From the NCBI RefSeq assembly GCF_000019965.1, contig NC_010571.1:5093001-5157000 (forward strand): DNA of 64,000 nt, read 5' to 3'. Made by a program: the position numbers and the translations under genes. Shown one piece after another: positions 15,804-63,844 of this stretch (position 1 is its first letter; every line of letters begins with the position of its first letter). This stretch comes from Opitutus terrae PB90-1 (lineage in GTDB: Bacteria; Verrucomicrobiota; Verrucomicrobiia; Opitutales; Opitutaceae). The notes beneath the pieces are model-generated. The model did no database searches, had not been told where the DNA came from, and saw only the letters and a program-made list of their open reading frames with translations.

Positions 15804-16453
15804 CGATGGCAACCGGTGCAGCTTTGCGGCGGCTTGATTTTCCAGTCGTGCACGAACTTTTCACCGGCGGCAGTCCCGGCCTGCGCCGCGATCGGAAGTG
15901 AATCCAAATTGTAAACGTCCTGCGGCGCGCGCACGCGTGTCGCCGGATTGCGGTGACACTCGAGGCAGAACGACATGCTCAGCGGCTGCTCGTGCGTGAC
16001 CACGTCCATGGTGTTGACCTTGCCGTGGCACTCGACGCAACTCACGCCGCGGTTCACGTGGGCGGAGTGATTGAAGAACACAAAGTCCGGGACCTCGTGC
16101 ACCTTCACCCACGGCACCGGGTCGCCCGTCTCGTAGCTTTGCTTCACCACGGCGAGCAGCGGGCTGTCGGGCTTGACCTGGTTGTGGCAGTTCATGCACG
16201 TCTGCGCCGTCGGCACGACGGAGGTGCGGCCCTTGTCGACGCCCGTGTGGCAATAGCGACAGTCGAGGCCGAGTTGGCCGGCATGAAGGTTGTGGCTGAA
16301 CGGCACCGGCTGGACCGGCGCATAGCCGACCCGGGTGTATTTCGGCGTCATGTAGTACGTGACGCCCGCCGTCGCGATCCCGCCCAGCACCACCAGATAG
16401 ATTACGATCTGGAGCGGGAGTCTGTTCGCCGATTTCGGGAAAAGAGAGGACAT
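15800..16453 (-). CDS. actA: Alternative Complex III subunit ActA, pentahaem cytochrome c
   Basis: The product has 217 residues with an N-terminal anchor (LPLQIVIYLVVLGGIATAGVTYYM) and exactly five haem motifs in order: CRYCH, CMNCH, CVECH, CLECH and CTGCH. The VPFSHNLHAG block supplies an axial histidine. Five haems and about 220 residues fit ActA. It is the first clear gene of the operon, 31 bp downstream of a small open frame. Confidence 0.95.
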   Translation of the reverse strand: MSSLFPKSANRLPLQIVIYLVVLGGIATAGVTYYMTPKYTRVGYAPVQPVPFSHNLHAGQLGLDCRYCHTGVDKGRTSVVPTAQTCMNCHNQVKPDSPLLAVVKQSYETGDPVPWVKVHEVPDFVFFNHSAHVNRGVSCVECHGKVNTMDVVTHEQPLSMSFCLECHRNPATRVRAPQDVYNLDSLPIAAQAGTAAGEKFVHDWKIKPPQSCTGCHR

Positions 16454-41106: not shown

Positions 41107-41281
41107 GGTTTGAACCCAATCTTATCCGCCAAAACGACCTCGCCAAGTGGAATCCGGAATAGTCCGAGATAGCGCTCCCTGCTTGCAGCCGAACACCCAC
41201 CCAGACTGGAATACGTGTCTGCTCGTCGACCGAAGATTCCATCAAGGTTGGCCACCGCATCCGAGCAATCAGACTAACATC

Positions 41282-48754: not shown

Positions 48755-51700
48755 TCAGATCGTCAGCACGCCGGCCGCGATACCAGCGTTTGTGCCAGCC
48801 GCACTGAGATCGAGCGCGCCGGTCAGTCGAACGACCACGTCACCCGCAGGGTCATACGTGCCGTTGCCATTATCAACCACGATGTAGGTGTCCCCACCGA
48901 AGTTGAACCAGCTCACGACGGCGTTGCCGGCAACATTGCCCGCGGTAGCGGAAGCAACGTAGTCCGAGAACGTGGCACCCTGACCGAGCGTCACCGCAGT
49001 CGCGTTAAACGTCGCCGTGCCGGTATCTACCGCGCTGAGGTCGAGGATATCAGCATCACCCGCGCCGGAGATCGTGGTGAAGTAGCCGGCGGAACCCGCC
49101 TTGCTGCTCAGCACAACCTTGTCAGCACCACCACCGAGGGTGATGTTCGACACTGCCTGACCGGCAACGGTGATGGTATCATTACCGTCACCCGCGCTGA
49201 TCGTGGTCGTGCCGGACGTCGCCGTGACCGTGATCGAGTCACCGTTCTTGCCGGTGGTGATCGAGTTACCCGCACCGCTGGCCGTAATCACGTTCGCACC
49301 GTCACCCGCCGTGATCGTGGTGCCGGCGGCGACCGCGATCGTATCCGCCGAGTTACCGGTGGTGATCGTGATCTTGCCCGCGCCCGTCGCGGTGATGTCG
49401 TTGGAGCCCTTCGTCGTGCCCTTGATCGTCGAGCCATCGCCCGCCGTCGTGGTCAGGATCAGCTTGCCGCCAGCCATGCCAGAAGCATCGACCGTGCCCG
49501 CCGCACCCGTGTTGGAGGTCAGCGAGAGGACATTGCCGGTGATGTTCACGACCTTGGCCTGGGTGAAGTTCACCGTGTCATCGGCGTTCTTCGTGTCGTT
49601 CGTATCGACGACGTTCAGGTTGATCGTGTTGATGTTGCCCGTGGCGAGGGTCTGGGCGTTGATGTCCGCCGTGTCCGACGTAATCGTGACGGCCAGTGAC
49701 TCGGTCTGGACTGCCGAAACCGGCACAGTGATCGTGCCGTTGCCAGTCTGACCCGCCTTGATCGTCAGGGACGCACCGGAGGCGAGCTTGTCGATCGCAT
49801 AGGCACCACCGAAGTCACCCGAGAGGATGACCTGGTTGATGTCGTCCAGGTTGTGCATGTCGACCGTGCCGAAGTTGCTGCCTGTGATTTCGAGCTTCTC
49901 GAAGCCCGAGATCTGGGCCGCGAGGCCCGTGCCGGTCGAAGCGGCGACCGCATCCTGGCCCGTGAGAGCGAGGGTGTCGGTGCCGTCGCCACCCGCGAGC
50001 GTGCCGCTGTCCATCGTCTTGTGGTCGGTGGCGTTCAGAGTCGCGGAGACCCAGTCGTCACCAGCACCAAGATCGGACGCCTTCTTCACCTGGCCGCTGA
50101 GCGTGATCACGTCGTTGCCCGCGCCGCCGGTGACCGTCACCTTCGTCGCGTCCACCGTCGCCGTAACCCCGGCCGTGGCCGTGCTCGTCAGCGTGGCGAG
50201 CTTGCCCAGACCCGAGATGTTACCCAAATCGAGCGCCTGATCGCCTGCGACCGTGATGGTCGCGACTTCACCGGCGGTGCCCCAAGCACCAATCGAGGAC
50301 TTCTTGCCGGAGGTCGTGAAGTCGACCTCTTTGACCGTAGCCGTCGTCTGATTCAGGTTGGTGACCGCAGAGTCATTGAGGTTCAACGCCAGCGTCGTGC
50401 CGCTGCCGCTGGTGGCGTGACCGGCCAGTTCATCCGTCAGGAGGACCGTGCCACTGACCTTCGTCAGCGTGAGGGTCGCCAGCGCATTGCTGTTAACCGT
50501 CACGTCGGTCGCACCATTGACGGTCACCGTCGAGATCGTGCCAGCCTTAGCCTTGTCGCCGCCGATGGCGTAGTCCTTGACGAGGACTGCGCCCTGGGTG
50601 CCGGAGGTTGTCTGGGTGATACTCACCGAACTCGTGCCGTTAACGCCATCGACTTCCGTAGCGGTGGCAGGGAAGTTGGCGCTGCCAGCTGCGTTCGTCA
50701 CCGTCACGGTGCTGCCGCCCACGACCTTCACCAGACCAGGCGTGACGGTCGTCGACGAGCTGAGAACCACCGCAGTGTCCTTCGTGGCCGTTACCGTGGC
50801 GGTATTCGCCGCGATGTTCTGCAGGGTCAGATTGGCGGAAGTCAGGCCAGTCCAGCCCGTCATATCGACCGCGTTGGCGGAGCCCAGCGTGCCGGTCGAG
50901 GTGTACATGAAGGTCTCGACATTCTTGACCGTCAGGCCGGAAAGCTGCGCCGTACCACCGTTCGAGTCGGAGATGTTGAGCACATCGTTGCCCGCGGCAC
51001 CATCGATCTTATCGAGCGCGCTCACGACGAGCGAGGTTGCCGTGTGTGAACCGTTGATCACATCGTCTGCCGTGCTACCAACGATGGTATCGATCGCGGT
51101 CGTCAGATCATAGCTCTTCGGCGCCGGGAAGGGGCTCTTGTCCGAGAACTGCACGCTCGTATTCGTGATCGTGCTGGCCATCACCGGAGCGCCACTCGAA
51201 TCGACATTGTCGATCGCGCTGAGGGAAAAGCCGTACGAGCCACTGTTGTTGATCGCTTTGGCATTGGTTTGGACGAGATCGCCACCAGCGATATCAACCG
51301 ATACGAACTGCGACTGTTCACCGAAAACGAGCGCCGGGGTTGCGGTCCCCTTCGCGTCGATGTCGCCAATGCGGACGACGCTCTGAACCTGCACGTTCGA
51401 CGCCGTAATACCGACGACACCGTTCTCGGCCGAGAAGATGGCGTCTCCAGCGCGGATACCACCGAACAGGGAGCCATTCGGATTCGAGGGGCTCGCGACG
51501 ATCGTCAGCCGGGCAACATTCGCCCAGTGGTCACCACCGGTGTGGGTATCGTCGAACAGCGCCTGGTTGGAGGCGTTGCCCTTGCCGACCGAGAAGACCG
51601 AGAAGTTCGTCGATGCGTCCGAACCCGTGATCGTGAACGACGCCAAGCCCTGGACGTACATCACGTCGGGCTGGTTGTAGTTCACCGCCGCGGCGGGCCC

Positions 51701-52006
51701 GTGGTAGGTGTCGGGATCGAGCGCGATCGTCAGAGTGCCCGCGCCGGAGAACTCGGCTTGGACGATGTCACCCTGCTGGTCGAGGAACGAGACGCGCGTG
51801 ACCTGACCCGGATCCGCGTCCACGGTGATGCTCGAGCTCTTCAGGAGCACTTGGTCATAGACATTGCCGTTCGAGTGAACGATGTCCTGCCATTGCTGAC
51901 CCTGGGCATCGGTAAAGCCGCCAGCCAAAAGTTGGCGCTGTTCCAGTGCTTCGAGCTTGAGGAGCGAACGAGCAGACTTGGAGTTTTTCTTAATGCGTTT
52001 AGCCAT
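48755..52006 (-). CDS. Large S-layer/RTX-like surface protein with LEPR-XLL type N-terminus
   Basis: With ATG 52006 the product has 1083 residues. The N-terminus is basic (MAKRIKKNSKSARSLLK) and leads to LEALEQRQLLAGG, the LEPR-XLL type motif; it is not a Sec signal. The rest is rich in Thr, Ser, Ala, Gly, Val and Asp with few basic residues and no Cys. VGSTADDVINGS, KIDGAAGNDVLNISDS, GGAGNDVITLSG and GDGNDTITVAG are RTX-like glycine/aspartate turns, as in S-layer proteins of the RsaA/SapA type. The C-terminus ends in a hydrophobic GIAAGVLTI. It has its own strong terminator and a 354-bp upstream gap, suggesting high separate expression. Assignment to the S-layer is inference. Confidence 0.8.
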   Translation of the reverse strand: MAKRIKKNSKSARSLLKLEALEQRQLLAGGFTDAQGQQWQDIVHSNGNVYDQVLLKSSSITVDADPGQVTRVSFLDQQGDIVQAEFSGAGTLTIALDPDTYHGPAAAVNYNQPDVMYVQGLASFTITGSDASTNFSVFSVGKGNASNQALFDDTHTGGDHWANVARLTIVASPSNPNGSLFGGIRAGDAIFSAENGVVGITASNVQVQSVVRIGDIDAKGTATPALVFGEQSQFVSVDIAGGDLVQTNAKAINNSGSYGFSLSAIDNVDSSGAPVMASTITNTSVQFSDKSPFPAPKSYDLTTAIDTIVGSTADDVINGSHTATSLVVSALDKIDGAAGNDVLNISDSNGGTAQLSGLTVKNVETFMYTSTGTLGSANAVDMTGWTGLTSANLTLQNIAANTATVTATKDTAVVLSSSTTVTPGLVKVVGGSTVTVTNAAGSANFPATATEVDGVNGTSSVSITQTTSGTQGAVLVKDYAIGGDKAKAGTISTVTVNGATDVTVNSNALATLTLTKVSGTVLLTDELAGHATSGSGTTLALNLNDSAVTNLNQTTATVKEVDFTTSGKKSSIGAWGTAGEVATITVAGDQALDLGNISGLGKLATLTSTATAGVTATVDATKVTVTGGAGNDVITLSGQVKKASDLGAGDDWVSATLNATDHKTMDSGTLAGGDGTDTLALTGQDAVAASTGTGLAAQISGFEKLEITGSNFGTVDMHNLDDINQVILSGDFGGAYAIDKLASGASLTIKAGQTGNGTITVPVSAVQTESLAVTITSDTADINAQTLATGNINTINLNVVDTNDTKNADDTVNFTQAKVVNITGNVLSLTSNTGAAGTVDASGMAGGKLILTTTAGDGSTIKGTTKGSNDITATGAGKITITTGNSADTIAVAAGTTITAGDGANVITASGAGNSITTGKNGDSITVTATSGTTTISAGDGNDTITVAGQAVSNITLGGGADKVVLSSKAGSAGYFTTISGAGDADILDLSAVDTGTATFNATAVTLGQGATFSDYVASATAGNVAGNAVVSWFNFGGDTYIVVDNGNGTYDPAGDVVVRLTGALDLSAAGTNAGIAAGVLTI

Positions 52007-52360
52007 GTTGGTTGTTGTTGATTTCGAGCAAGGGAGTTTGCGTCCCAAATTGGGGCATAGGTTTGCTCAAAGTGCGGAGATCCTATCGAAAGATGGGAGA
52101 TTTGACCATCATCCCAACGGATGATTTCACCAATCGTCAATGGAGCCTTGGATGAGAGGAGGTAACTCCTTGATTGCTGTCGCCAACCAAGTGTGGACAG
52201 GCTCCCCGAATTTACTTAGGGAGGATTGTGAAATAGTCCTGAAGGCCTATGCAGCCACTCTTGATCTCAGGCACTTGCATTGCCTGCAGCGCGCACAGGC
52301 ACGACTTGGAGAGAGACGTCCCGATCTTCGTTCGCCTCTCGCCTCCGTGGGTCCGGCGGC
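52007..52360. other. 354-bp gap: leader/promoter region of the S-layer-like gene
   Basis: The stretch just upstream of the start codon is CAACAACAACC-like with no Shine-Dalgarno sequence. A TTGACG hexamer on the minus strand (52135-52140) could be a -35 box, but no good -10 was found. A CCCAAATTGGGG palindrome lies at 52044-52055. No gene was seen in the rest. Confidence 0.4.
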
Positions 52361-53692
52361 CTACGAAGCCTCGAAACGAGCCCCCAAATCGGCTGCTCCG
52401 AAAAACCGAGGCCGCTCGCCTGGGTGGCGCACCGACAATGATCGGATTCTTGCAACCCGGTGAACCATCTGCTCAGGCGCACCGTCGCCCCGATCTCCCC
52501 AGCCGATGGCCACGTCGACCAAGTAGCTGCCGACACCGAGGTTAATGCCAAAGGTGAACGCATAGCAGCTGATCTGCCCCGCTTGGAGGGCGAGAAACCG
52601 GTCCTCCAAGTGGACCGACGTCGCCCCATAGGCCACTTGGTTGTGTCGATTGGAAATCTCGAATCCGGCCAGGAGTCGGTCCAGATGCGCTGTACCGCGC
52701 ACGTAAAGTTCCAGTCTGGCTTCTTCGCCCACATCAAAGGTTTCTGTCTCCGTCCCGCGGGAGTTCAACAACCGGCAGTGAATGATTTCCGCCTCCCGCG
52801 ACCCTACTTCCTGCGTCGTTTCCCAGTTCCGCTCCTTGGCTCCCGGTGGCAAACCCACTCCTGCCGCCCGCTCGGCCGCCGGTCCTGATTCGCTCGCCTG
52901 AATTCGCCCGCGATGGAGTTGATGATAATGGTTAACCGCCTCATCACTGGGACCGACGAACGACATCCGGCCCTCGTGCAATACGATCGCGCGACGGCAC
53001 AGCGCCTTCACGGCGCCCAGATCGTGGCTGACGAGAATCAGCGACATGCCCGTCTTTAGCCGCTCCTGGAAAAATCGAGCACACTTGGCCTGAAAGAACA
53101 CGTCGCCGACGGCGAGCGCCTCATCGACGATGAAAAGCTCGGGAGCGAGGATCGTCTGCGCCGCGAACGCGAGCCGCAGCAACATGCCGCTCGAGTAGAC
53201 CTTGGCCGGCTGGTCGATGAACGCGCCGATGCCGGCAAACTCCTCCACCTCCGGCATCCGGGCGAGGATTTCCTTTCTTGAGAAACCGTAGAGCGCCGCC
53301 TGCAGGAGCACGTTCTCGCGGCCGGAAAACTCCAAGTTAAAGCCAGAGCCAAGTTCCAATAGCGCCGCCACGCGACCGTTCACATGGACGTCGCCGGAGC
53401 TTGGCTCCAGCGTGCCCGCGAGAATCTGCAGCAGCGTGCTCTTGCCCGAGCCGTTGCGGCCGACGATGCCCAGGCTCTCGCCCCGTTGCAGCGTGAAGCT
53501 CACCTCCTTGAGCGCGTGAAACTGTGCCCCTCGACGATCGGCTGCAGCGAAGAGCTGCCGGCGCGCCGAGGGAGGGAGAAGCGGCAAGCTGCCAGCCTGC
53601 TCCAGGAGCATCGCCGTAAGCCGATCGGCTGGACGAGCCCACAACCGGTAAGATTTGGATACACCCCGTGCTTCCACGAGCGCAACGTTCAT
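52361..53692 (-). CDS. wzt: Polysaccharide ABC transporter ATPase with C-terminal carbohydrate-binding domain (Wzt)
   Basis: With ATG 53692 the product has 443 residues. Walker A GRNGSGKSTLLQIL, YSSGMLLRLAFA (the modified signature of Wzt/KpsT), Walker B LFIVDEALAVGDVFF and H-loop LILVSHDLGAV are present. From about residue 275 a beta-rich Wzt_C-like domain follows (TETFDVGEEARLELYV, VAYGATSVHLED), which binds the terminal modification of the exported chain in O9a-type systems. No permease is beside it; the wzm at 28565 is the only candidate in the window. Upstream reading to 53728 is not needed. Confidence 0.92.
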   Translation of the reverse strand: MNVALVEARGVSKSYRLWARPADRLTAMLLEQAGSLPLLPPSARRQLFAAADRRGAQFHALKEVSFTLQRGESLGIVGRNGSGKSTLLQILAGTLEPSSGDVHVNGRVAALLELGSGFNLEFSGRENVLLQAALYGFSRKEILARMPEVEEFAGIGAFIDQPAKVYSSGMLLRLAFAAQTILAPELFIVDEALAVGDVFFQAKCARFFQERLKTGMSLILVSHDLGAVKALCRRAIVLHEGRMSFVGPSDEAVNHYHQLHRGRIQASESGPAAERAAGVGLPPGAKERNWETTQEVGSREAEIIHCRLLNSRGTETETFDVGEEARLELYVRGTAHLDRLLAGFEISNRHNQVAYGATSVHLEDRFLALQAGQISCYAFTFGINLGVGSYLVDVAIGWGDRGDGAPEQMVHRVARIRSLSVRHPGERPRFFGAADLGARFEAS

Positions 53693-53792
53693 TTGCTTGA
53701 CGAAGCAACGAGAACCCGCCGGCTGCAAGCTCGCGATCCGCAGACGTTCTCACGCCTTCGTCGAACCGCGAGGACGCCACGACGAAGGCGTT

Positions 53793-54050: not shown

Positions 54051-55157
54051 TCACGCTTGCGGACGGCACAATCCGACGAACTGCAGCCGCGTGCTCACCC
54101 CGGCTTTCTGGAGGATGTGCCGGATGTGGGTCTTCACCGTTGGGAGCGCAATCTTGAGCTTCACCGCGATCTCCCGCGCCGAACTCCCTTCAAGAATGAG
54201 CTCCGCCAGTTCGCTTTCGCGCCGGGAGAACCCCAGCCGTTCACAGATCTGCGCCAGCGGGATCATGCCGCTGGGTACCTGCCGGCGCGTCGAGCAGGTG
54301 AGAATAAGATACGGCCGAACACCCAGCGGCGTCTGGAAGGCGAGATAGCGCACCGCCCCCTCGAGCCAGGTCTCCGTATCCAGTTTATGCTTCAGCTCCG
54401 ACACCGACCCCTGGCTGACCGCCATTCGACCGGACACGGGTGGGAACTTGACTTCCCGAAACGCCCGAAAGCACCGGTCGCAGGCTTCCTTCCAGATTTC
54501 CGGCAGTTCCGACTGGCGCGGCAGCGAGAGATTCTGCAGCGCGGCGAAACCGCCATTCCACACGTGCATGTGTTCCTTGAACTTTCGATTCTCAAAGATG
54601 ACCCGTAACCGGTTATCCAAGACGCACAGACCCTCGGGATGGATGTTCCCCACCATTCTGAACAGCCCGGCTTCGAACTCCTGTTCCTGGGCCTGCGCGA
54701 GCGCGACAAAGCAGCGGTCCACCAGACGCGAGATGCCACCGAGCGCCATCATCTCGTTGCCCGAGAACTCCGCGTCCGCCGGCGCACGGTAGCAAAACAG
54801 AATAAACTCTCCGCCCCGGTCCCGCTTGTTGCGCAGGACACGACAACGGCTGCTGGGCAAGGGACTGATCTGCCGGGCCAGCGTGGCGAGAAACGGCCCA
54901 TCGAACCCCTGTGGAGGAATGATCGCTTCAATGCCGTTCTTCGCGGCCAGCGTCAGCAGGGGACTGCTCTCCGGACGAATCCCGTGCGCCATGAACACCG
55001 GCCGGCTGCCGGGGGTCGGCGTGGGCGGAAAGATCACGGCCCAGCCGCTGAGCGCGAACTGCTCCATGATACGTTTCAGCGATTGCTGGAACCCGGGCAG
55101 ATTGCGCTGGAGGGCCAGCTCCAGCAGACATTCGTTCAACGCAGACGCTACCAGCAT
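54051..55157 (-). CDS. LuxR-type transcriptional regulator
   Basis: The product has 368 residues. The C-terminal helix-turn-helix (about 300-365) is LGFSRRESELAELILEGSSAREIAVKLKIALPTVKTHIRHIL (quoted over its length in parts), with TVKTHIRHIL as recognition helix. The N-terminal 290 residues have no known receiver domain; they may contain a PAS- or GAF-like fold (EGLCVLDNRLRVIFENRKF looks PAS-like at about residue 173). It is 98 bp downstream of the M50-HlyD gene and probably regulates the export locus. Confidence 0.82.
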   Translation of the reverse strand: MLVASALNECLLELALQRNLPGFQQSLKRIMEQFALSGWAVIFPPTPTPGSRPVFMAHGIRPESSPLLTLAAKNGIEAIIPPQGFDGPFLATLARQISPLPSSRCRVLRNKRDRGGEFILFCYRAPADAEFSGNEMMALGGISRLVDRCFVALAQAQEQEFEAGLFRMVGNIHPEGLCVLDNRLRVIFENRKFKEHMHVWNGGFAALQNLSLPRQSELPEIWKEACDRCFRAFREVKFPPVSGRMAVSQGSVSELKHKLDTETWLEGAVRYLAFQTPLGVRPYLILTCSTRRQVPSGMIPLAQICERLGFSRRESELAELILEGSSAREIAVKLKIALPTVKTHIRHILQKAGVSTRLQFVGLCRPQA

Positions 55158-55255
55158 TGGTGATGGGGTGTTCCCGTCTCTCGCGCCGTTCGGCGCAAAC
55201 TCGCGAACTTCACGTGGAAGGATTCGGCACCGGTGTCAACCCGGAGCTCGCCCGT

Positions 55256-57481
55256 TCACCGGCGCACCGGCTGGGGTTTCACGTTGAACAGCGACATGAA
55301 CCAGCGCCAGGTCTTCTCCGCCACGGTGGTGCGATTTCCTTGAATCGTCAGCCGCACGCGCAGTCCCTCCTGAACCTCGTGATCCGGCTTGGGCAACGGC
55401 GCACTGGCCACGAACACCGGAAAATCCGGGCGGGCGCGTGGATCGCGCTGCATCATCTGCGATGGCACCGACCCTCCGAAGTAGGCGAGCATCCCGTAAT
55501 GGATGTCGGTGGGCTGAGCCGGCTGGGAGGATACGGTGTCCAGCTCCGTCTCGAACAGCTGGGCCGTGGCCAGCCAGCGGCCGCGCACCTTGTTGCCCGG
55601 GCTGACCAGTTGGGCCTCGTTTTCCGTGAGCGGGATCAGCACCCGCATGTGACGGGTGTCCCCCAGCCGCAGAATCGGCACGTAGGGCGAGGCGTAAGCG
55701 CCGGCCAGTTTCTCCACGTCGGGAGTGAGCACATACCCACCCACCCGCGCTCGCAACTGCAGCTTGGCCGCGCGCGCGGAGGCCACCTGGTACGAAGCTT
55801 CCGCGAGTTCCATTTCCTGCGCGGCATGAGCCTGTGTTTCGGCCGCGCCCCAGGCGGGGGAGTAACGCAGCGAGCTGAAGCGAATACGAGACTGTTGCCG
55901 GGTCGCCTCGGCGACGCGCAACTCCGCGATCACTTCGGGATTGTCAAGCGTCACCACGAGATCGCCCGGCTGCACCCACTGCCCGGTACGAACGTGCACC
56001 TGCTTGATCACGCCGCCCACATCCGAGGCCATCACCTCCGGCGACTCGGCGGTCACGATGGCCTGCTGCGTGACCTTGTAGTGCGCCGGCACGAAAAAAC
56101 TGATCGCCACGAGGCCCGCCAGCACGGCGATAGTCGTTAAGGCTCGGCGCCAGCTCGAGCCTGTCTTGACGATGTGCGCCCCGGGTTTCGTCGCATCCAT
56201 GATGACCTTGATAAATGGCAGCGCCACAAATGAGCCTTCCACAAAAAAACCGAGCCCAAGGCCGAAATCGCGCAGCCCGATCGGCGCCAGCACCCGGCCG
56301 AAGATCTGAGTGAACCCGTAGATGATCGTGATCATGTACAGGTAGGCGAGCACCGCGTAGATCACGAACACGTACCCCCTGGATTCGGCTCCGAACTGCG
56401 ACTCCTGATTGCGGTTTTGGTAGCCGAGGAACAGGCGCTGCAGCTGATACGAGCAAAACGCCATCGCCTTTGAACGGAGATTGGGAATCTCCAGCAGGTC
56501 GCAAACCACGTAGTAACCGTCGAACCGCATCAGCGGATTGATGTTGAAAACGATCGTGTTCACGCTCGCGACAATCATCGCGTTGAACGCCACGCTGCGG
56601 CCGATCCCCTCCGGCAGGACGAGCCAGAAATGGGCCGCGATGCACGCCATGATCAGCTCCGTGAAAATGCCGGCGATCGTGGTATAAAGCTTGTGCTTTT
56701 TCCGCCGCATCATCCACGCGTCCGATGCATCCACGTAGCCGCACGGGGTGAAACACATCAGGCACACGCCCATTTCGTGCACCTCGCCCCCGAAATGACG
56801 ACAGGTGGTCGCATGCCCGAACTCGTGCAGCGTCTTGATCACGATGATCGTGAACCACAAAAGCACCAGATTGCTGGCGGAAAAAAAGTCGACGGGCCGG
56901 GTCGCAAACTCGCCCGAGTTCGCCAGCAACAGTCCAGCCGTCCAGACGTAGAAAAGCAGCGCGGCACCGACGAACCACTTCGTCCAAACAAAGCGGATGG
57001 CGTGCGCCAGCTGACCAAGCCAGGCGCTCGGGTCGATCAGGGGGACTTTGACGAAAAGGAATCCCTGGATGATCTTGGCCCAGAACATCATCAGCTGTTG
57101 CGGCCTGGTCTGGGTGGCGCTTTCGACAAACCGGCTCGCGCCGATGTTGAGCAGGCCGCCCGCGCCCAGCTGATTCGTGAACTGGGCGAGTTCAGCCGCA
57201 GTCCGCACATGATTCGGGTAACGGGCATTGAACCGCTCGGCGATTTCTCCGAGCGTGCGCTTCCCGTCGAGCAGGGTCAGGATGTAGGTTTCCTCCGGCA
57301 GCAGCCGAAAATACGTCAGCGCCAGCGGATCCTTCAGCACGTAGTATTCCTGATGCTTGAACATCTGTCGCCGGATCACGATGTCGGCGCGCAGTCGCGC
57401 CGGAACGATCGCCTCGAGTCGTCGTTGTTCGGGCGAAATCGCACCGTGCCCGGGCAATCCTGCAGTCGCTACGGCTTCCAT
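55256..57481 (-). CDS. PqqD-like / M50 zinc metalloprotease / HlyD adaptor fusion
   Basis: The product has 741 residues with three parts. Residues about 35-110 form a PqqD-like winged helix (YYVLKDPLALTYFRLLPEE, LLDGKRTLGEIAERF), a fold that in RiPP systems binds leader peptides. Residues about 130-470 are a multi-helix M50 (site-2 protease) domain: H219-E220-F221-G222-H223 is the HExxH zinc site and NPLMRFDGYY (D321) gives the third ligand. Residues about 480-720 are a HlyD-like adaptor with a biotinyl/lipoyl motif (GGVIKQVHVRTGQWVQPGDLVVTLD) and a coiled-coil. It overlaps the tolC-like gene by 13 bp. The layout suggests a combined recognition, cleavage and export unit. Confidence 0.9.
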   Translation of the reverse strand: MEAVATAGLPGHGAISPEQRRLEAIVPARLRADIVIRRQMFKHQEYYVLKDPLALTYFRLLPEETYILTLLDGKRTLGEIAERFNARYPNHVRTAAELAQFTNQLGAGGLLNIGASRFVESATQTRPQQLMMFWAKIIQGFLFVKVPLIDPSAWLGQLAHAIRFVWTKWFVGAALLFYVWTAGLLLANSGEFATRPVDFFSASNLVLLWFTIIVIKTLHEFGHATTCRHFGGEVHEMGVCLMCFTPCGYVDASDAWMMRRKKHKLYTTIAGIFTELIMACIAAHFWLVLPEGIGRSVAFNAMIVASVNTIVFNINPLMRFDGYYVVCDLLEIPNLRSKAMAFCSYQLQRLFLGYQNRNQESQFGAESRGYVFVIYAVLAYLYMITIIYGFTQIFGRVLAPIGLRDFGLGLGFFVEGSFVALPFIKVIMDATKPGAHIVKTGSSWRRALTTIAVLAGLVAISFFVPAHYKVTQQAIVTAESPEVMASDVGGVIKQVHVRTGQWVQPGDLVVTLDNPEVIAELRVAEATRQQSRIRFSSLRYSPAWGAAETQAHAAQEMELAEASYQVASARAAKLQLRARVGGYVLTPDVEKLAGAYASPYVPILRLGDTRHMRVLIPLTENEAQLVSPGNKVRGRWLATAQLFETELDTVSSQPAQPTDIHYGMLAYFGGSVPSQMMQRDPRARPDFPVFVASAPLPKPDHEVQEGLRVRLTIQGNRTTVAEKTWRWFMSLFNVKPQPVRR

Positions 57482-58902
57482 GTGTCCGGTACCGCGATCG
57501 AGTCGCGGATCTGCCCGCCCACGGAGAACTCGATCTCGGCAATCATCGCGTTCTGCGTGTAGATCGACTCGCCCAAGCGGGTCTCCGCCCGCCGCAGGGT
57601 CATCGTCGCCTGCAGCACCTGCTCCAGACTCGCCTGGCCCTCCTCGTAGAGTCGGCGGGCATCGCGCGCCGCGCGGCTGGCCATGTCCACGCTCTTTTGT
57701 TGAGCCTCCATCGCGACCCTGGCCTGCGCCAGCCCCTCATAGAGTTCGTGAAGCTTGGATACGACGCCATGCTCCGTTTCCGCCAGGCGGGTTTCAGCGG
57801 AACGCCGCTCGGCGCGTGCGGCCATGCGCCGCCCGCGCGACGCGCCTCCCTCGAAAAGATTCCATTCCCCCATGACCCCGTATGTCCAGCCGTCGAGTCG
57901 GATGCCTGAATTGTAATAGGAACTACGCTCGCCATAGGAGGCAAACGCCTCGACGGTGGGCAGCCAGTTTCCCACCTCCGCGCGTTCGGTGGCCTTCGCC
58001 GCCGCGACTGCGACCGCAGCCGCCTCCAGGTCGGGCCGGTTTGCTCGCGCCTCGCCCAGAGCTTCCTCGAACGGCAGATCGAACGGCCGCGCCGTGAACT
58101 CGCCCGCCACCCGCACGGGCTGCTTGGAATCGGGTAGCTGCAGCAACCGGCGGAAGGATTGTTCCGCCGCGCCCAGCGCCCGACGGGCTTCCGCCAGATC
58201 CGCCCGGGCCCCTTCCGCCTCGGCTTCCGCCCGCAACAGTTCGAATTCCGGCACCTCACCTTCGGCCTGCTTCCGGGAGGTCCATTCCACGAGCTGAATA
58301 TATTCCTCAACGCGGCGTTTCTCGGCCGCGACCGTGGAGGTTCTGAGTTGGATCGCATCCAGGCCCTGGCGCACCTGGCTGATCGTTCGGGCGACGGTGT
58401 TGCGCAGCACGAGATAGGCCTGTTTCTTTAACAACTGCTGCCGCTTTACCTGATGCCACGAGGCCAGCCCGTCGAACACCAACTGCCGCACCTCAACCCG
58501 CATGTCATAGCTGTAGAGCGCAACCGCCGTCTGGGCGGAGGGCGGGATGTTGCGTTCGCCCGGCGAACGATCGATGAGTCCGCGGGCGCGCTCGTTCGCG
58601 CTGGCACTGGCGCTCAGCTGCGGCAGCATGCGCGCGACGAGTTGAAGGCGCGCGCCCTCCTGCCGCTCGAACTCGTGCTTGGCCAACAGCAGGTCCGGGT
58701 TGGCTTCCAGTGCTCGCGCCACCGCTCGATCGAGCGTCCACTCGTCAGAGGCAGTCGCACCAGCCACCGGAGCCGGCTGACCGTTCGATCCCGATCCGGC
58801 GTCCGGCCGGATCTCGGCCCGCACGAAACCGACTGCTCCGAACAGCAGGGCCAGGTAGCGCACACGACAGAACCGCAGGTTGATGAAAGTCACGATGTTC
58901 AC
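57469..58902 (-). CDS. TolC-family outer membrane protein of the LEPR-XLL locus
   Basis: With GTG 58902 the product has 477 residues and a signal peptide (RYLALLFGAVGFVRAEI). Two OEP repeats follow: LDRAVARALEANPDLLLAKHEFERQEGAR and the second around EEALGEARANRPDLEAAAVAVAAAKA; YGVMGEWNLFEGGASRGRR marks the second beta/helix entry. The frame is open back to 59331, but that part precedes the signal peptide and overlaps the divergent gene. First gene of the minus-strand half of the locus. Confidence 0.85.
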   Translation of the reverse strand: MNIVTFINLRFCRVRYLALLFGAVGFVRAEIRPDAGSGSNGQPAPVAGATASDEWTLDRAVARALEANPDLLLAKHEFERQEGARLQLVARMLPQLSASASANERARGLIDRSPGERNIPPSAQTAVALYSYDMRVEVRQLVFDGLASWHQVKRQQLLKKQAYLVLRNTVARTISQVRQGLDAIQLRTSTVAAEKRRVEEYIQLVEWTSRKQAEGEVPEFELLRAEAEAEGARADLAEARRALGAAEQSFRRLLQLPDSKQPVRVAGEFTARPFDLPFEEALGEARANRPDLEAAAVAVAAAKATERAEVGNWLPTVEAFASYGERSSYYNSGIRLDGWTYGVMGEWNLFEGGASRGRRMAARAERRSAETRLAETEHGVVSKLHELYEGLAQARVAMEAQQKSVDMASRAARDARRLYEEGQASLEQVLQATMTLRRAETRLGESIYTQNAMIAEIEFSVGGQIRDSIAVPDTWKP

Positions 58903-59312
58903 GGAATGCGCAGGAGCACCGGTCGGGATCCACCGCGGTGCCCATCCGGACTTGCGGGTGACCAGCACGCTTTGGATCGAAGAGGATAATACATTGCGCC
59001 CAAAGCCGAGAAAGTCGGGGCGCGGCGTTCCCATGGCAACGAATTTCTCGGGGCTCACGATCACTGCCCCGGCGGCGATTTCGAGCTCGGATACTGGTCG
59101 AAGCGTGTGCATCTTGGCGCTGCCAATACGACGAACCGATTCAGGTTTCCCGATTTGCGCGAAGCGCGTCATGCCGGAGTGGGAACACCGATGACCGACG
59201 CGTGATCCCACAATCGCATCTGAAAAATTCGTCACAAACCCACCGGCCCGCGATGCCGGCTCTTTTGGTTTGCCATGCCCCTTAGCCAGCTGAAATCGTT
59301 TCGCCTTTACCA
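58903..59312. other. 410-bp divergent promoter region of the export locus
   Basis: It separates the tolC-like gene (minus) from the GAF-HlyD gene (plus), so it must hold both promoters. A GATAAT hexamer at 58985-58990 was noted but lacks a matching -35. No gene is supported here; the minus-strand open frame has no homology that I can see. Confidence 0.45.
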
Positions 59313-61496
59313 ATGACTCCCGTGCAGTCACCGCCTGCGCCCGCGCAGTTGCAGCAGCAACAGCAGCTTTTCAACAGCATCACTGCCCGACTCACGCAGC
59401 TGGCGAAGGACCCGCCTGACCTGCCGGTCTACCTGCGCGCCCATGCCGAGTGTGTGACCACCGCCTTTCGACCGGTGGGTTTTGCTTACGACATGATCAG
59501 CGGCCCGGCCTTTCATCGCGTGCTGCAGGGCAACGTGGAATCGCTGGGGCTCAAGGAGGCGCCGGAACAGGACAATGCGTTCCAGCGCGCCCGTCGGCTC
59601 GCCGCGGATCAGCGCAAGCCCGTGGTCCTGCCGCCTCACAGCCAGCACGGCACGCCATCGCAGATCGGCATCCCGGTCGCGGAATCACCCGCGCCGGACG
59701 AATCGCCCGTGTTCAATCGTACGCCCTTTGAACAGCTCTTCGTGCCGATTCCGCAGGGCAACGCCTCCGCCGGCGTATTGCACATCTGGTTTCAACCGGG
59801 CAATCCCAACGCCTCGCACGCGCGGCTCATGCTGCTGCGGCAGCTGTGCAACGAGATCGAACTTTACCTGAAGACACGCCGCGCGCGCGATGCGTCCCAG
59901 GAGGTCACCCGCATCAGCACCTACGCCCGTCTGCTGGAGGAGCTGACCGGCGACATCGACGTGGATTCGGTGTGCTGGAAATTGGTCAACTATGCGCGAG
60001 AAGCCGTTGCCTGCGACCGCGTGTGCTTGTTCACCGTCGCCCATTACGATCGCGTTCACGACATCGGGGCCGATATGTTCGACCTCAGCTACGATTTCAA
60101 GCTCCAAGCCTGCAGCGGCCTGAAAAGACCGCACCCGAAGAGCGAACAAGCCGGGGTGCTGCAACGCGTCGCCCAGAAGCTGGCGGAGATGTCCCTCGCG
60201 AAATCAGCAGCGGAAAGTGACAATGGTCCTGCCCCGCTGGCCGAGGCGCCCACAGCCGCAGCCGCGCCAGCCGGCGCTGCGCCGGTCCCCGAGCGGCCTC
60301 CCGGACCCGCGGCTCCCGCCCGGCAAGCCGGTCCGATCAAGCCGAAGCTCACGCTGATGATGCGTGATCCTTCTAAAATCGATGCACGTCCGGTCGAGGT
60401 GAACGATTATTTCGAGGTGATGCCGATGAACTGGGCCACAGTCATCCCGCTGTTCGACCGGGATCAGCGCGTGTGCGGAATTCTCCTGTTCGAGGGCACC
60501 AAGCTCGAGGAGCAGATTGCCGCGCTGCTCAAGCCCATGCTCGATCTCGCTGCGTCCGCCGGCAAGGCTCTCGGCACCGCTCTCTACTGCAACCAGCACC
60601 GTTCGATGCGGATCGCCCGACGGCTCGTCGCGACGCGCCAGGCCTACGTGAACACGCCAACCAAGCGGAAATGGCTCCGCTTTGGACTGCCTGCCCTGCT
60701 GTTCGTCGCCGTGCTCGCCTGCCCCATTCCGTATTCGGTCAAGGGCGGAGCCAGTGTGCTTCCCGTCACCCAAACCACCCTCCCGGCGCTGGTGAGCTCG
60801 CGACTGCTGGAAGTGCCGGTGCGCGAGGGTGAATCGGTGACACAGGGCCAGGTGCTCGCACGTTTCGATACCCGGGACATTCAGCTTCAGCTGGTGCAAG
60901 CCGAGCAGGAATATGAACGCTCGCTGGTCGAAAGCGACGCCGCCATGAACGCCGGCAACGAAGCCCAGATGCAGATCGCCCGGCTGAATGCCGACAAGGC
61001 GGCGGCCATGGCCGAGAAACTCCGGCTCGATCTCTCCCGGGCGGTCGTTCGCGCGCCGTTTGACGGCATCGTGCTGGGGGCGCAAACGCTGTCCACCCGG
61101 GTCGGCGAGGTGCTCCGGCTCGGCGAGCCGGCCCTGCATGTGGTCGATCCGCGCACTTGGCAGGTGAAGGCCGTGCTCAAGGAGCGCGACCTGATCTTCC
61201 TCGAAAAACGGCTCAAAACGCATGGGCCCGTTCCCGCGGCGCTCCGCCTCGCCGCCAACCCCGCCCACAAATATCAGCTGCAGCTCGTCAACCGTTCCCA
61301 GCTCGCCTACGGTCTGGACACGTCCACCGGCGACTATCAGTTCACCGTCGTGGTGCCGTTGAACGCCAAGTTGGACGATGCGGCATTCCTAAAATCGGGT
61401 TTCACTGGCCGGATGACGTTCGAAAGCGGCGTGCGCCCTGTCGCTTACGTGCTGTTCAAGGACTTCGTGGATTTCCTGACGGTTCGCTTCTTCTGA
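59313..61496 (+). CDS. HlyD-type adaptor with cytoplasmic GAF-like sensor region
   Basis: The product has 727 residues. Residues 1-450 are soluble and cytoplasmic: two GAF-like stretches (about 25-190 and 200-425) with VDSVCWKLVNYAREAVACDRVCLFTV and WATVIPLFDRDQRVCGILLFEG, joined by a Pro/Ala linker (305-340). One membrane helix lies at 454-473 (WLRFGLPALLFVAVLACPIP). Residues 480-727 are a HlyD adaptor with the lipoyl halves RLLEVPVREGESVTQGQVLARFD and VRAPFDGIVLGAQTLSTRVGEV. A sensor domain on the inner side of an export adaptor is rare; it could gate export by a small ligand or redox state. Confidence 0.85.
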   Translation: MTPVQSPPAPAQLQQQQQLFNSITARLTQLAKDPPDLPVYLRAHAECVTTAFRPVGFAYDMISGPAFHRVLQGNVESLGLKEAPEQDNAFQRARRLAADQRKPVVLPPHSQHGTPSQIGIPVAESPAPDESPVFNRTPFEQLFVPIPQGNASAGVLHIWFQPGNPNASHARLMLLRQLCNEIELYLKTRRARDASQEVTRISTYARLLEELTGDIDVDSVCWKLVNYAREAVACDRVCLFTVAHYDRVHDIGADMFDLSYDFKLQACSGLKRPHPKSEQAGVLQRVAQKLAEMSLAKSAAESDNGPAPLAEAPTAAAAPAGAAPVPERPPGPAAPARQAGPIKPKLTLMMRDPSKIDARPVEVNDYFEVMPMNWATVIPLFDRDQRVCGILLFEGTKLEEQIAALLKPMLDLAASAGKALGTALYCNQHRSMRIARRLVATRQAYVNTPTKRKWLRFGLPALLFVAVLACPIPYSVKGGASVLPVTQTTLPALVSSRLLEVPVREGESVTQGQVLARFDTRDIQLQLVQAEQEYERSLVESDAAMNAGNEAQMQIARLNADKAAAMAEKLRLDLSRAVVRAPFDGIVLGAQTLSTRVGEVLRLGEPALHVVDPRTWQVKAVLKERDLIFLEKRLKTHGPVPAALRLAANPAHKYQLQLVNRSQLAYGLDTSTGDYQFTVVVPLNAKLDDAAFLKSGFTGRMTFESGVRPVAYVLFKDFVDFLTVRFF

Positions 61497-61517
61497 GTTT
61501 TCCTGCCTCACCTTCAC

Positions 61518-62366
61518 ATGGGCTTTCCTGCGAAAATCATCCCACTGGTAGCTGCAATTTCAATGGCGGCGGTCGCGCTGGCCCAGCCGGCCTCCGACAA
61601 TGTCTCGCCGCCGAACGAGCCCTCGCGGGAACCGCCCGCGTTCCCGAGCAGCACCGCCCGAGGCTCGTTCAGATCGGTGCTGCGTCCGGCGGTCGATGTG
61701 AGCCTCAGCTCCCGCGCCGCGGGGATCGTCGAGGTCATCCACGTTCCCGAAGGCAGCACGGTCACCGCCGGACAATCCATCATGAGTCTGGACTCGGCCG
61801 AGCAGCGCGCGGAACTGGCCGAGGCAGAAGCGTCCGCCCGCGGCACCAAGGCAGAAAAAGACCGGGCGGCCACGGAATTTGAGCGGATCCAACGCCTGCG
61901 CCAGGACAACATCTACAGCGAAAAGCAGTTTCAGGAGGCCAAAGCTTCTGCCGAACTGGCCCTCAGCCGTTACGAGCAGGCTCTCGCCGCCGTCGAACTC
62001 GCGCGAGCGCGGCTCGCCAACCGCGATATCGTTTCGCCGATCGCCGGCATCTTCCTGAAAACCAACAAATTGGTGGGCGAGGCGATTGAGCGTTATGAGA
62101 CCGTGGCACGCGTCGTCGACGTGAGAAGGCTCGAAATGCTAGTATTCTGCGACGCTCGGTATTTTTCCCTCTTCCGCGTCGACCAGCGCGTCGATGTGAG
62201 AGTGCTCAAATCGTCTGAGGACCAACCCATGATCTCCGGCACCGTTTCTCACGTGGACCCCGTCATTGACCCATCCAGTGGCACTTTTCGCGTGAAAATC
62301 CGCATCGAACCTTCGGCCCAGGCGGTGCCCGGGTTTTCCGCGATATTGATTGCACCCGGAGCCTGA
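61518..62366 (+). CDS. Periplasmic HlyD-type adaptor with signal peptide
   Basis: The product has 282 residues: signal peptide (IIPLVAAISMAAVALAQPAS), then a lipoyl half (RAAGIVEVIHVPEGSTVTAGQSIMSLDS), a short coiled-coil (about 95-165) and the second half (SPIAGIFLKTNKLVGEAIERYE). There is no membrane anchor apart from the signal. It lies 21 bp after the GAF-HlyD gene and 23 bp before the LEPR-XLL gene. It is likely a third adaptor layer between inner membrane and TolC. Confidence 0.88.
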   Translation: MGFPAKIIPLVAAISMAAVALAQPASDNVSPPNEPSREPPAFPSSTARGSFRSVLRPAVDVSLSSRAAGIVEVIHVPEGSTVTAGQSIMSLDSAEQRAELAEAEASARGTKAEKDRAATEFERIQRLRQDNIYSEKQFQEAKASAELALSRYEQALAAVELARARLANRDIVSPIAGIFLKTNKLVGEAIERYETVARVVDVRRLEMLVFCDARYFSLFRVDQRVDVRVLKSSEDQPMISGTVSHVDPVIDPSSGTFRVKIRIEPSAQAVPGFSAILIAPGA

Positions 62367-62389
62367 AAAGCTTTTCTCCAGAACGTACC

Positions 62390-63844
62390 ATGAACCCGTC
62401 TCCAGCATCCAACCGCAGCCTCCGCATCGAGGCCCTGGAGACGCGCACTTTGTTGGCCGGCGCGGCTGATCCTTTCGGATTAGTCGCCGACTACAATGCG
62501 GTGGTAGCAGCAGTGAGCGGCCAGGGTGATTTTTCCGCGAGTTTCAGCACCAATTTCGGCAACCATCAGCTGGTTCTGACGGGCACCGCCGATACCACCC
62601 TCACCATCGATCTCGACAAGCTCCCGGACTTCGTCACGAACTTGGACATTTCCAATTTTGGATCCGTGACTTTCATCGGCCACGACGACATCGCCACGAT
62701 GAGGGTCTCGAATGTGGACAAGATCGAAGCGCCGAACCTGACGATCACGGGTGCATTGCAGGCGAACAAGGTCGACTTCATGGAAGTCGGAGACACCGGA
62801 GTGCTTTCGGTGCTTACCTTCACCGGTGACAAGACTGAACTCAAGGTCGGCAATTTCGGCGATGGTTCGACGATCGTGTCCAGCTTGGGAGCGTTGACGC
62901 TGAGCACGCAGGACGATCTGGTTCTGTTCGTCGCAGCGGCAACCAGTGACCATCCGGATCAGTATCTTTACCTGAAGGATTACAACGCCGGCTTGATCGT
63001 CGATCCCGATGGTATTCTGCGCTCAAATATTCGCGACTGGTCCCCGGCAGTGGATCACCCGGTGACACCGGATGATCCAGCGACGCCGGATACGCCGGTC
63101 CCGCCCGATTCACCGACCGATCCAATTACGCCCGAGCCGCCCACGGAGCCCCATGAACCCGGATTCGTGATCGTCGATCTGCCGCTCGATGAGCACATGC
63201 GTACGTTCGTGATGGAGCTGCGGTCACTGCTCGCCTCTTCCTCGGGTGATATCGACGAGCTCATCGCCCAATATGTGGCTCATCGCGACCAATCGAGTCT
63301 GCCGTTGGCAATCGTAGCGGACGGAACCAGCCACTTTGGCGGTTTCACACCATCCGGTATGCGCGGAAACGTATCCACACCTCTGCCGGCGCCTTCCATC
63401 CCGGGCTTCACGATTCCCGCTGCTGACGGCCTGCATGGCCCGGTTCTACCTGACGACCTTCAGTCCCTAGGAATGACTCCCGAGCTGCCCGCTCTCGCAG
63501 TGAAGGAGTTCGACATGCACTTCGGTGCCGTCGCGCCGCTTGACCTCGGTGCGACCGCGGTGGGTCTGGCTTTGCCCACGTCGCGGGCAGCCCGGCAGGG
63601 GGAGGCCACCGCTCGCCCGATGGAGAGCGAACCCACCCTCGCGGAGAGCGTGCGCGCTCTTGGCAGCTACATCGCGGAGCGCGTCACGGCCGAGTTCACG
63701 CCTGGACAGCAGTCTTTCGTGCTCTTGGTGGATCCGCCGCCCTCTCGCGGGCTGGCCGGAGCTAAAAAGGCTCTCGTGGAGCGCGGCGCGCCGGCGGCGC
63801 CCGCCACTGTCACTCTGACCAGTCCGACTCCAGAGTTGATCTGA
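62390..63844 (+). CDS. LEPR-XLL type surface/exported protein of the export locus
   Basis: The product has 484 residues. The N-terminus MNPSPASNRSLRIEALETRTLLAGA carries the LEPR-XLL type motif, matching the S-layer-like protein (LEALEQRQLLAG) at 9 of 12 positions. There is no Sec signal. A beta-rich part (about 30-190) follows, then a Pro/Asp/Thr linker (about 222-260, repeats of TPDxPxTP) and a C-terminal part without known domain. It is directly downstream of the adaptor genes, as expected for the cargo or for an outer-membrane-bound assembly factor. Confidence 0.8.
   Translation: MNPSPASNRSLRIEALETRTLLAGAADPFGLVADYNAVVAAVSGQGDFSASFSTNFGNHQLVLTGTADTTLTIDLDKLPDFVTNLDISNFGSVTFIGHDDIATMRVSNVDKIEAPNLTITGALQANKVDFMEVGDTGVLSVLTFTGDKTELKVGNFGDGSTIVSSLGALTLSTQDDLVLFVAAATSDHPDQYLYLKDYNAGLIVDPDGILRSNIRDWSPAVDHPVTPDDPATPDTPVPPDSPTDPITPEPPTEPHEPGFVIVDLPLDEHMRTFVMELRSLLASSSGDIDELIAQYVAHRDQSSLPLAIVADGTSHFGGFTPSGMRGNVSTPLPAPSIPGFTIPAADGLHGPVLPDDLQSLGMTPELPALAVKEFDMHFGAVAPLDLGATAVGLALPTSRAARQGEATARPMESEPTLAESVRALGSYIAERVTAEFTPGQQSFVLLVDPPPSRGLAGAKKALVERGAPAAPATVTLTSPTPELI

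Follow-up and report, generated by a model that had tools for sequence, protein, structure and literature searches.

The closest described relative of the system considered here is the locus of secondary SecA_DEAD proteins reported by Kamneva, Poudel and Ward (2015; PMC4452313), in which SecA_DEAD proteins that have completely or partly lost the wing/scaffold domain are encoded with M50/HlyD, GAF/HlyD and HlyD proteins and sometimes with an OEP protein, and for which the SecA_DEAD protein was proposed as the ATPase and the M50 protein as the pore. The biological role of that locus was given as 'completely unknown', the legend to Fig 3 of the paper refers to proteins of more than 1,000 amino acids (aa) in the loci, and the words LEPR, giant, adhesin, PqqD and Opitutus do not occur in its main text; one operon that the paper names is META1p2402-2399 of Methylobacterium extorquens AM1. 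Elsewhere, a giant protein of ~8000 aa with an N-terminal LEPR-XLL and C-terminal RTX domains has been described from Vibrio, and no export machine is named for it in the parts of the paper available to us (PMC10868602); the searched text of a further paper held nothing relevant to the system (PMC3482391). Here we describe a block of six genes from Opitutus terrae PB90-1, found in a stretch of 64,000 nucleotides (hereafter the window; positions 5093001–5157000 of the 5,957,605-base single-contig genome), which on balance we consider to encode a tripartite exporter that works without a type I ABC pump and serves proteins starting with a LEPR-type tag.

A preliminary description had placed six open reading frames (ORFs) here, all of which were confirmed. 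The block and the parts we distinguish in it are as follows (rmsd, root-mean-square deviation):

54051–55157, minus strand: LuxR-type regulator, 368 aa (GerE PF00196, 42.5 bits; cluster c27, with members in the window, L044 and L045)
55256–57481, minus strand: central membrane protein, 741 aa, with RRE/PqqD-like, site-2 protease (M50) and HlyD/MacA adaptor parts (Pfam, NCBIfam, AlphaFold2 and PDB matches)
57143–57406, minus strand: RRE-like domain of the central protein, residues 26–113 (VIA-align Z 11.0, rmsd 2.8, 82 aligned residues, 23% identity to TbiB1 with TbiA leader peptide, 5v1u)
56489–56884, minus strand: site-2 protease core of the central protein with HEFGH, residues 200–331 (Z 10.2, rmsd 3.2, 130 aligned to the RseP orthologue 7w6y)
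55289–56161, minus strand: adaptor part of the central protein, residues 441–731 (Z 17.1, rmsd 4.3, 226 aligned to a MacA-MexA chimera; HlyD_D23)
57469–59331, minus strand: TolC-family outer membrane channel (OEP PF02321, 2.1e-44)
59313–61496, plus strand: HlyD adaptor of the GAF-HlyD family, 727 aa (HlyD_3, 1.8e-10; GAF from homologues alone)
61518–62366, plus strand: soluble periplasmic HlyD adaptor, 282 aa, with a signal-like N-terminus (TIGR01730, 131.7 bits, cut-off 94.9)
62390–63844, plus strand: LEPR-like protein 1, 484 aa, putative cargo, N-terminus LRIEALETRTLLAG (by motif only)
62435–62455, plus strand: LETRTLL motif, the proposed export tag (motif search)

With gaps of 98, −13, −19, 21 and 23 bases from one gene to the next, the six genes make up two closely packed units that point away from each other. 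The block is genuine and also conserved. Among 60 neighbourhoods of M50-HlyD genes from the same phylum (see below), a relative of the 59313–61496 gene is present in 46 and one of the soluble adaptor (N-terminal hydrophobicity 2.53) in 37, and a LuxR relative of cluster c27 adjoins the block in both L044 and L045. The TolC ORF is probably over-long, with a likely start at ~58902 (residue 143), to judge from the GTG codons and then a signal-like stretch found from that residue on. The families assigned in the preliminary description stood for the LuxR, PqqD-like/M50/HlyD, TolC and HlyD proteins, while the GAF domain was not matched in domain scans of the 59313–61496 protein itself and was found instead in its homologues L060 and L258. 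Pfam and NCBIfam scans found no ABC or RND proteins among the six, in agreement with that description, and no MFS pump either (the search for RND and MFS pumps was confined to the block). The system had also been called undescribed, which does not hold given the SecA_DEAD, M50/HlyD, GAF/HlyD, HlyD and OEP locus cited above; the machine was already known, and as far as our searches of the open literature reach, it is the link to a cargo, the RRE-like part and the SecA-less clade that are new.

Compared with the secondary SecA_DEAD locus, the window has all of the M50-HlyD, GAF-HlyD (GAF by homology), HlyD and OEP (57469–59331) components, and differs in that its genome is without the SecA paralogue lacking SecA_SW that marks that locus. 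It resembles type I secretion (HlyB-HlyD-TolC) in combining an adaptor with a TolC conduit and in having large repetitive surface proteins as likely cargo, but the ABC transporter of that system is missing from the block and the signal proposed here is N-terminal rather than C-terminal. The adaptor fold is also common to the MacAB/MexAB-type tripartite pumps (Z 17.1), but no MacB or RND partner is found among the block proteins. A different likeness is to the leader processing of ribosomally synthesised and post-translationally modified peptides (RiPPs), as in the RRE of lasso-peptide B1 proteins or the daptide protease (NF041824), where an RRE-like fold is likewise followed by an M50 fold; the window version differs in being fused to an export adaptor and in having a protein rather than a small peptide as its proposed cargo. 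Finally, the window shares the N-terminal L[ED]xRxLL with LEPR-XLL / LEPR-8K proteins (NF012209), but its own proteins are small and fall outside that model.

The central protein was modelled with AlphaFold2 using an alignment of the window protein and 46 relatives, giving a mean predicted local distance difference test (pLDDT) score of 85.8. In addition to the matches listed above, the RRE-like part was found to match a lasso-peptide B1 protein with its leader (6jx3) with a Z of 10.7 in VIA-align, and all 50 matches listed by Foldseek alone for the central protein were adaptors. Peptidase_M50 is matched above its cut-off (28.8 versus 27.2 bits), and H219, E220 and H223 of the HExxH, together with D321 further downstream, do not vary in alignments of 25 and 47 sequences. 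The Pfam PqqD match is below cut-off (18.2 versus 23.4 bits), as is the match to the daptide protease model NF041824 (167 versus 300 bits), and it is the predicted structure and not the Pfam score that supports the PqqD/RRE assignment. The model resolves confidently into the three parts, so that a single membrane protein combines a leader-reading fold, an intramembrane protease core with intact catalytic residues and an export adaptor. It should be noted that the Z of the RRE-like and site-2 protease parts is moderate and that a fold by itself is no proof of binding. The RRE-like domain provides a structural footing for the earlier proposal of leader recognition by the M50 protein.

Relatives of the central M50-HlyD protein (E ≤ 1e-20) were found in 80/387 genomes of the phylum to which the window belongs. 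We took 60 of the ~90 M50-HlyD matches, each with a neighbourhood of up to 20 kb and together coming from 58 genomes, and compared these with 58 control regions from the same genomes (890 kb of control sequence versus 1064 kb in neighbourhoods, with many on short contigs), counting as LEPR-type any ORF of at least 150 aa having L[ED]xRxLL or L[ED]xR[ILVM][LMF]FD in the first 80 residues (ORFs were called greedily and without a trained gene finder). Linkage of M50-HlyD/TolC loci to LEPR genes had been set beforehand as a test of the preliminary description, and it was found: LEPR-type N-termini occur in 16/60 neighbourhoods versus 2/58 controls (Fisher 5e-4; per-kb binomial 0.002), and both control matches are giant LEPR-type ORFs themselves. 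One relaxed motif applied to both sets gave 21/60 versus 3/58 (p 6e-5), with two of the 21 (L046 and L048; 165–176 aa) looking like chance. As a forward test, we followed giant ORFs beside the cassette whose start lay beyond the sequence first fetched; nine were flagged as cut at the 5' end, of which L064 and L066 lay at contig ends and L087 was judged spurious, and of the six followed, L079 ran off its contig and the other five starts were reached, all five carrying the motif. A LEPR start was also found in two (L171 and L173) of 14 other flank regions. The first motif, the relaxed motif and the extra flanks together give 26/60 neighbourhoods, a total without a matching control. Variants of LExR[IV][LY]F[DE][GA]A start further cassette-adjoining proteins, most of them large (L083, L086, L088, L090/L165, L091, L093/L166, L095, L097 and L100/L167), and the genomes concerned all fall outside the set of 25 described below that have the SecA paralogue. 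At L193:6545–14538, two adjacent large proteins with an N-terminal LEPRIAPA, a variant of the tag, directly follow the M50-HlyD gene.

A candidate motor is found in many of these relatives. Cluster c3 (595–726 aa) is present in 20/60 neighbourhoods and its scanned members are SecA paralogues with SecA_DEAD, the P-loop and the preprotein cross-linking domain. SecA_SW and SEC-C are missing from all six paralogues scanned (two from c3 and four from other loci), and both are present in the canonical SecA of the window genome; 20 aligned paralogues all share the Walker A residues G129–K132 and those of the DExD, and the profile matches solved SecA structures to about residue 608. Calling the paralogue at E ≤ 1e-160, and a giant LEPR protein as a match to NF012209 at E ≤ 0.05 in a frame of at least 1000 aa, we found the paralogue in 25/387 genomes. 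Every one of these 25 encodes M50-HlyD too, no more than 1.4 kb from the paralogue in 22 and on another contig in three. Giant LEPR proteins are present in 23/25 of these genomes and in 0/362 of the others (Fisher 4.6e-35, a p-value which, like those above, overstates independence because the genomes share ancestry), or in 23/80 genomes with M50-HlyD versus 0/307 without (NF012209 matched 36/387 genomes in all, 13 of them with frames below 1000 aa only, which were not counted as giant). The difference between genomes with all three elements and those where none was found also holds within single genera, namely g8 (G137 and G289 versus G085 and G257), g6 (G271 versus G075, G119 and G152) and g15 (G286 versus G220 and G307). 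The LEPR frames reach 20,466 aa, with the LEPR-8K open frames G015:C142:82006, G018:C1:3411911 and G091:C1:3960295 having 20,466, 19,216 and 18,984 aa, respectively. These counts and those of the neighbourhoods lend strong linkage support to the core of the earlier claim, namely that LEPR-type proteins leave through a TolC/adaptor system which has no type I ABC pump. What that claim had missed is that many relatives carry a motor, the SecA paralogue, which is absent from the window's own branch.

The same association was seen outside the phylum. Shimia gijangensis has, in order, GAF-HlyD, M50-HlyD, one further gene, the SecA paralogue, HlyD and a giant with LEPRYLLSADL, and Roseateles cellulosilyticus is another species in which the full locus accompanies a LEPR giant. 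In 199 genomes of the alphaproteobacterial family to which Shimia belongs, we defined the paralogue as a match of more than 600 bits reaching model position 654 and the giant as E < 1e-4 in a frame of at least 1000 aa (21 genomes), and found giant LEPR matches in 17/17 genomes with the paralogue (E < 1e-4, at least 3472 aa) versus 4/182 others. Among the four exceptions, two (G513 and G479) have SecA frames of 691 aa (469 and 468 bits, respectively) which are divergent full-length short SecA proteins, G410 has a SecA-like frame of 705 aa (536 bits) matched only to position 552, and G486 has the canonical SecA only. Relaxing the threshold to E ≤ 0.05 added three more giants (G446, G577 and G544), all without the paralogue, and G520 (E 1.3e-9) was excluded by its length of 743 aa. 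Matches were also found in 124 plasmid records, seven of which were examined; the start of the giant could be read in five (Methylosinus, Pseudosulfitobacter, Pontibrevibacter, Mesorhizobium and Alisedimentitalea) and the tag is present in all five, four by regular expression and Pontibrevibacter by eye (MEPRVLL), with the start of the giant not read in the Rhodobacteraceae M382 and Sinorhizobium plasmids, which were left out of this count. By their annotated coordinates the plasmid giants have 8,148–12,918 aa (two are annotated as 'LEPR-XLL domain-containing protein') and they adjoin an adaptor, an M50/PqqD-type protein and a SecA paralogue, the Mesorhizobium M50 protein being annotated as hypothetical and having a Pfam match of 20.6 bits, which is below the cut-off.

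At least 583 M50-HlyD relatives came to light when genome contigs were scanned, and the best 80 loci, mostly planctomycete, were taken further; eight of these have a SecA paralogue. Planctomycetes commonly have the cassette. A short SecA was found in all 11 planctomycete genomes checked (one is partial at a contig end), with an NF012209 match (E ≤ 0.05) somewhere in 10 of them. At L272, L275, L276 and L277 the annotation of the SecA paralogue reads 'prepilin peptidase' or 'DEAD/DEAH box helicase', and these operons repeatedly include genes of the DUF3467 or SapC families.

Returning to the window, two further genes lie just outside the block and had been left out of the preliminary description:

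48755–52048, minus strand: LEPR-like protein 2, 1097 aa, repetitive and of surface type, putative cargo, N-terminus LLKLEALEQRQLLAGG (LEQRQLL at 51946)
52361–53728, minus strand: Wzt-type ABC ATPase of the O-antigen export type (Wzt_C 2.8e-25, ABC_tran 2.2e-19)

L[ED]xRxLL is present within the first 60 residues of 2/49 called genes in the window, these being the two LEPR-like proteins, compared with 0.022 expected from shuffled N-termini, and so the motif is not there by chance. The label of LEPR-XLL protein given earlier to the first of them is borne out by this N-terminal motif and not by the curated LEPR model NF012209 (cut-off 17 bits), which neither protein matches at E ≤ 0.05 or at E ≤ 10; the model fails as a detector for both, and for this reason we call them LEPR-like, by motif only. 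LEPR-like protein 1 begins MNPSPASNRSLRIEALETRTLLAG, and relatives of it adjoin the block in L184, L185 and L045 (36.5, 27.0 and 31.6% identity over 482, 222 and 117 columns, respectively), with LETRTLLA (residues 16–23 of LEPR-like protein 1) invariant in the three aligned. LEPR-like protein 2 shares 51% identity with the LEPR-like gene of L044 over 257 N-terminal columns. A predicted structure of LEPR-like protein 1 has a mean pLDDT of 44.9, and only residues ~30–200, which are mainly strands, are mostly moderate to confident. No shared C-terminal motif was seen when the LEPR giants were compared by eye, and a conserved C-terminal signal in them was set aside. LEPR-like protein 2 resembles a repetitive S-layer-type protein, has a weak bluetail match below cut-off, and adjoins the Wzt gene.

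A tree built from 124 M50-HlyD proteins places the window in a clade with L044, L045, L184 and L185 (support 0.993), and within the sequence examined all five members have a LEPR-like gene, four of these genes being relatives of the one for LEPR-like protein 1. The locus sequence examined shows no SecA paralogue in any of the five, and none was found at E ≤ 1e-160 in the genomes of the window, L044 (G372) and L045 (G336); the window genome was also negative at 1e-5, and a hidden paralogue there was set aside, as the only SecA found is the canonical one, a 1007-aa open frame which keeps SecA_SW. The small cargo candidates of the window, together with G486 and Candidatus Venteria ishoeyi (G399), suggest, short of proof, that only the longest chains require the paralogue.

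Several observations weigh against the block being an exporter of LEPR-type proteins in the form proposed here. A LEPR-type gene was not found in 34/60 neighbourhoods even with the relaxed motif and extra flanks, and a LEPR-type N-terminus (within 90 residues) is beside the cassette in only six of the best 80 loci of the wider scan, two of these from the window clade (the Shimia tag, at residue 103 of an over-long ORF, was left out of this count). Strong LEPR matches in G486, G399 and G520 (frames of 1664, 1231 and 743 aa, respectively) come from genomes where only the canonical SecA was found, and the failure of both window proteins to match NF012209 is to be counted here as well. In L046–L049, which belong to one family with genomes of 2.2–2.5 Mb, the cassette adjoins cluster c16 in 4/4 cases, and the one member scanned (L047:11415–12932) belongs to the circularly permuted ATP-grasp proteins (CP_ATPgrasp_2, 472 bits); with ATP-grasp-type partners instead of LEPR genes, the machine may have other cargo. 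We note that the c16 protein could be a peptide-making partner of the cassette in these four loci.

The likeliest of the alternatives is that canonical SecA/SecYEG takes LEPR proteins across the inner membrane and that the block serves only for outer-membrane passage or processing. This would fit the window genome, where the canonical SecA stands alone, the absence of a paralogue from the L044 and L045 genomes as searched above, and its absence from the f22-type genomes sampled and from Candidatus Venteria ishoeyi. The N-termini themselves point the other way, as they are often basic and then continue with LExLExRxLL, mostly without a Sec-like hydrophobic core. The maximum 15-residue grand average of hydropathy (GRAVY) in the first 80 residues is 0.37–1.85 for 30 LEPR N-termini versus 1.40–2.53 for six presumed signal-bearing controls, and 25/30 are less hydrophobic than every control. 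The other five reach the lowest control value (1.40) and are borderline, including LEPR-like protein 1 (1.41), and GRAVY, here computed with Kyte-Doolittle values, is a crude test for signal peptides. We give this alternative a real if minor chance of being correct. SecA is inhibited by azide.

A second alternative is that the cassette is a general exporter of peptides or small molecules, similar to those for RiPPs, with the LEPR genes being mere frequent neighbours or one cargo among several. The resemblance of the RRE and M50 parts to the daptide protease would be explained in this way, as would the ATP-grasp-type genes of L046–L049 and the planctomycete cassettes, which are mostly without adjoining LEPR genes. 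Against it stand the operon-like gene order on plasmids and the fact that, in two phyla, the version with SecA and the giant LEPR proteins occur together almost without exception. We regard this alternative as unlikely.

A third possibility is that an ABC protein energises LEPR export, either a type I pump encoded elsewhere which borrows the TolC channel and adaptors of the block, or the Wzt-type ATPase. The window genome has seven ABC_membrane matches; of the five of these loci that were scanned none exceeded a type I secretion cut-off, with four being MsbA-like and passing no cut-off and one passing as a cyclic-peptide exporter. A Wzt homologue is found near the block in the window, L044 and L045, that is, in 3/3 clade members with enough flank (there is too little sequence past the M50 gene to judge in L184 and L185), and at L045:5451–7731 a Wzt and ABC-2 permease pair (53.2 bits) adjoins the LuxR and M50-HlyD genes, which again speaks for an ABC protein. 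No ABC-2 permease was found among the four further window ORFs scanned for one, which are a part of the window's ORFs. Wzt_C is a mark of O-antigen exporters, and the surroundings of the window Wzt gene include glycosyltransferases and methyltransferases. The gene is probably a neighbour and not part of the block; as the pump of the block it was set aside as being of the O-antigen type, yet we retain it within this alternative. The C-terminal RTX domains of the Vibrio LEPR-XLL giant are usual in type I cargo (PMC10868602), while the parts of Kamneva et al. (PMC4452313) available to us report no ABC transporter homologue in such loci. Overall, we hold energising by an ABC protein to be improbable. 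That the GAF/HlyD/M50 proteins are a sensor cleaving a regulator, with the LEPR genes as its regulon, is very improbable, as the GAF domains of the homologues, the LuxR gene in the unit and the regulatory role suggested for the GAF protein in the same source would fit, but three adaptors, a TolC channel and the SecA motor of the relatives are hard to reconcile with sensing alone.

The gene linkage strongly suggests that LEPR proteins are exported; how the tag might be bound and cleaved and what could energise the window's own version are matters of inference. In the tripartite exporter we favour, the RRE-like domain would bind the LExLExRxLL tag of a cargo without a clear Sec signal, and the membrane-embedded M50 part would act as a gate, handing the cargo into the adaptor/TolC conduit and perhaps clipping the tag; the adaptors and TolC would then carry the chain out, so that the cargo would end on the surface. 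In many LEPR-linked relatives the minimal SecA paralogue would supply the force, and such a motor fits the threading of chains that are thousands of residues long. With no paralogue and small cargo candidates (484 and 1097 aa), the window clade would instead have to use the housekeeping SecA, another ATPase (perhaps Wzt) or folding-driven export. More tentatively, and as something we would not yet bet on, these elements may amount to a distinct secretion system spread over Verrucomicrobiota, Planctomycetota and Proteobacteria. In it, an RRE of the kind known from the biosynthesis of peptide natural products would read an N-terminal LEPR tag, a protease-adaptor fusion would be the inner-membrane gate and a minimal SecA the usual motor for chains of up to ~20,000 residues, with the window clade having the same gate and small cargo and being without a dedicated motor.

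Two other window genes may be mentioned here. A TPR protein at 41147–43717 has an end similar to Glyco_transf_41 / UDP-glucose:protein N-glucosyltransferase and might glycosylate exported surface proteins, and a 1128-aa ORF at 12426–15812 has an N-terminal RRHFLK stretch (motif at 15653) which we take to resemble a Tat motif.

The question addressed here is how extremely long bacterial proteins reach the surface. Our analysis ties the LEPR-XLL tag, which has been annotated and left unexplained, to the SecA_DEAD/HlyD locus, which has been described and left without a role, and each would explain the other. Through the RRE-like part, leader recognition, so far a matter of small peptides, would be carried over to the secretion of proteins, and the clade to which the Opitutus terrae block belongs shows a version of the machine without the SecA paralogue, which raises the question of what drives it.

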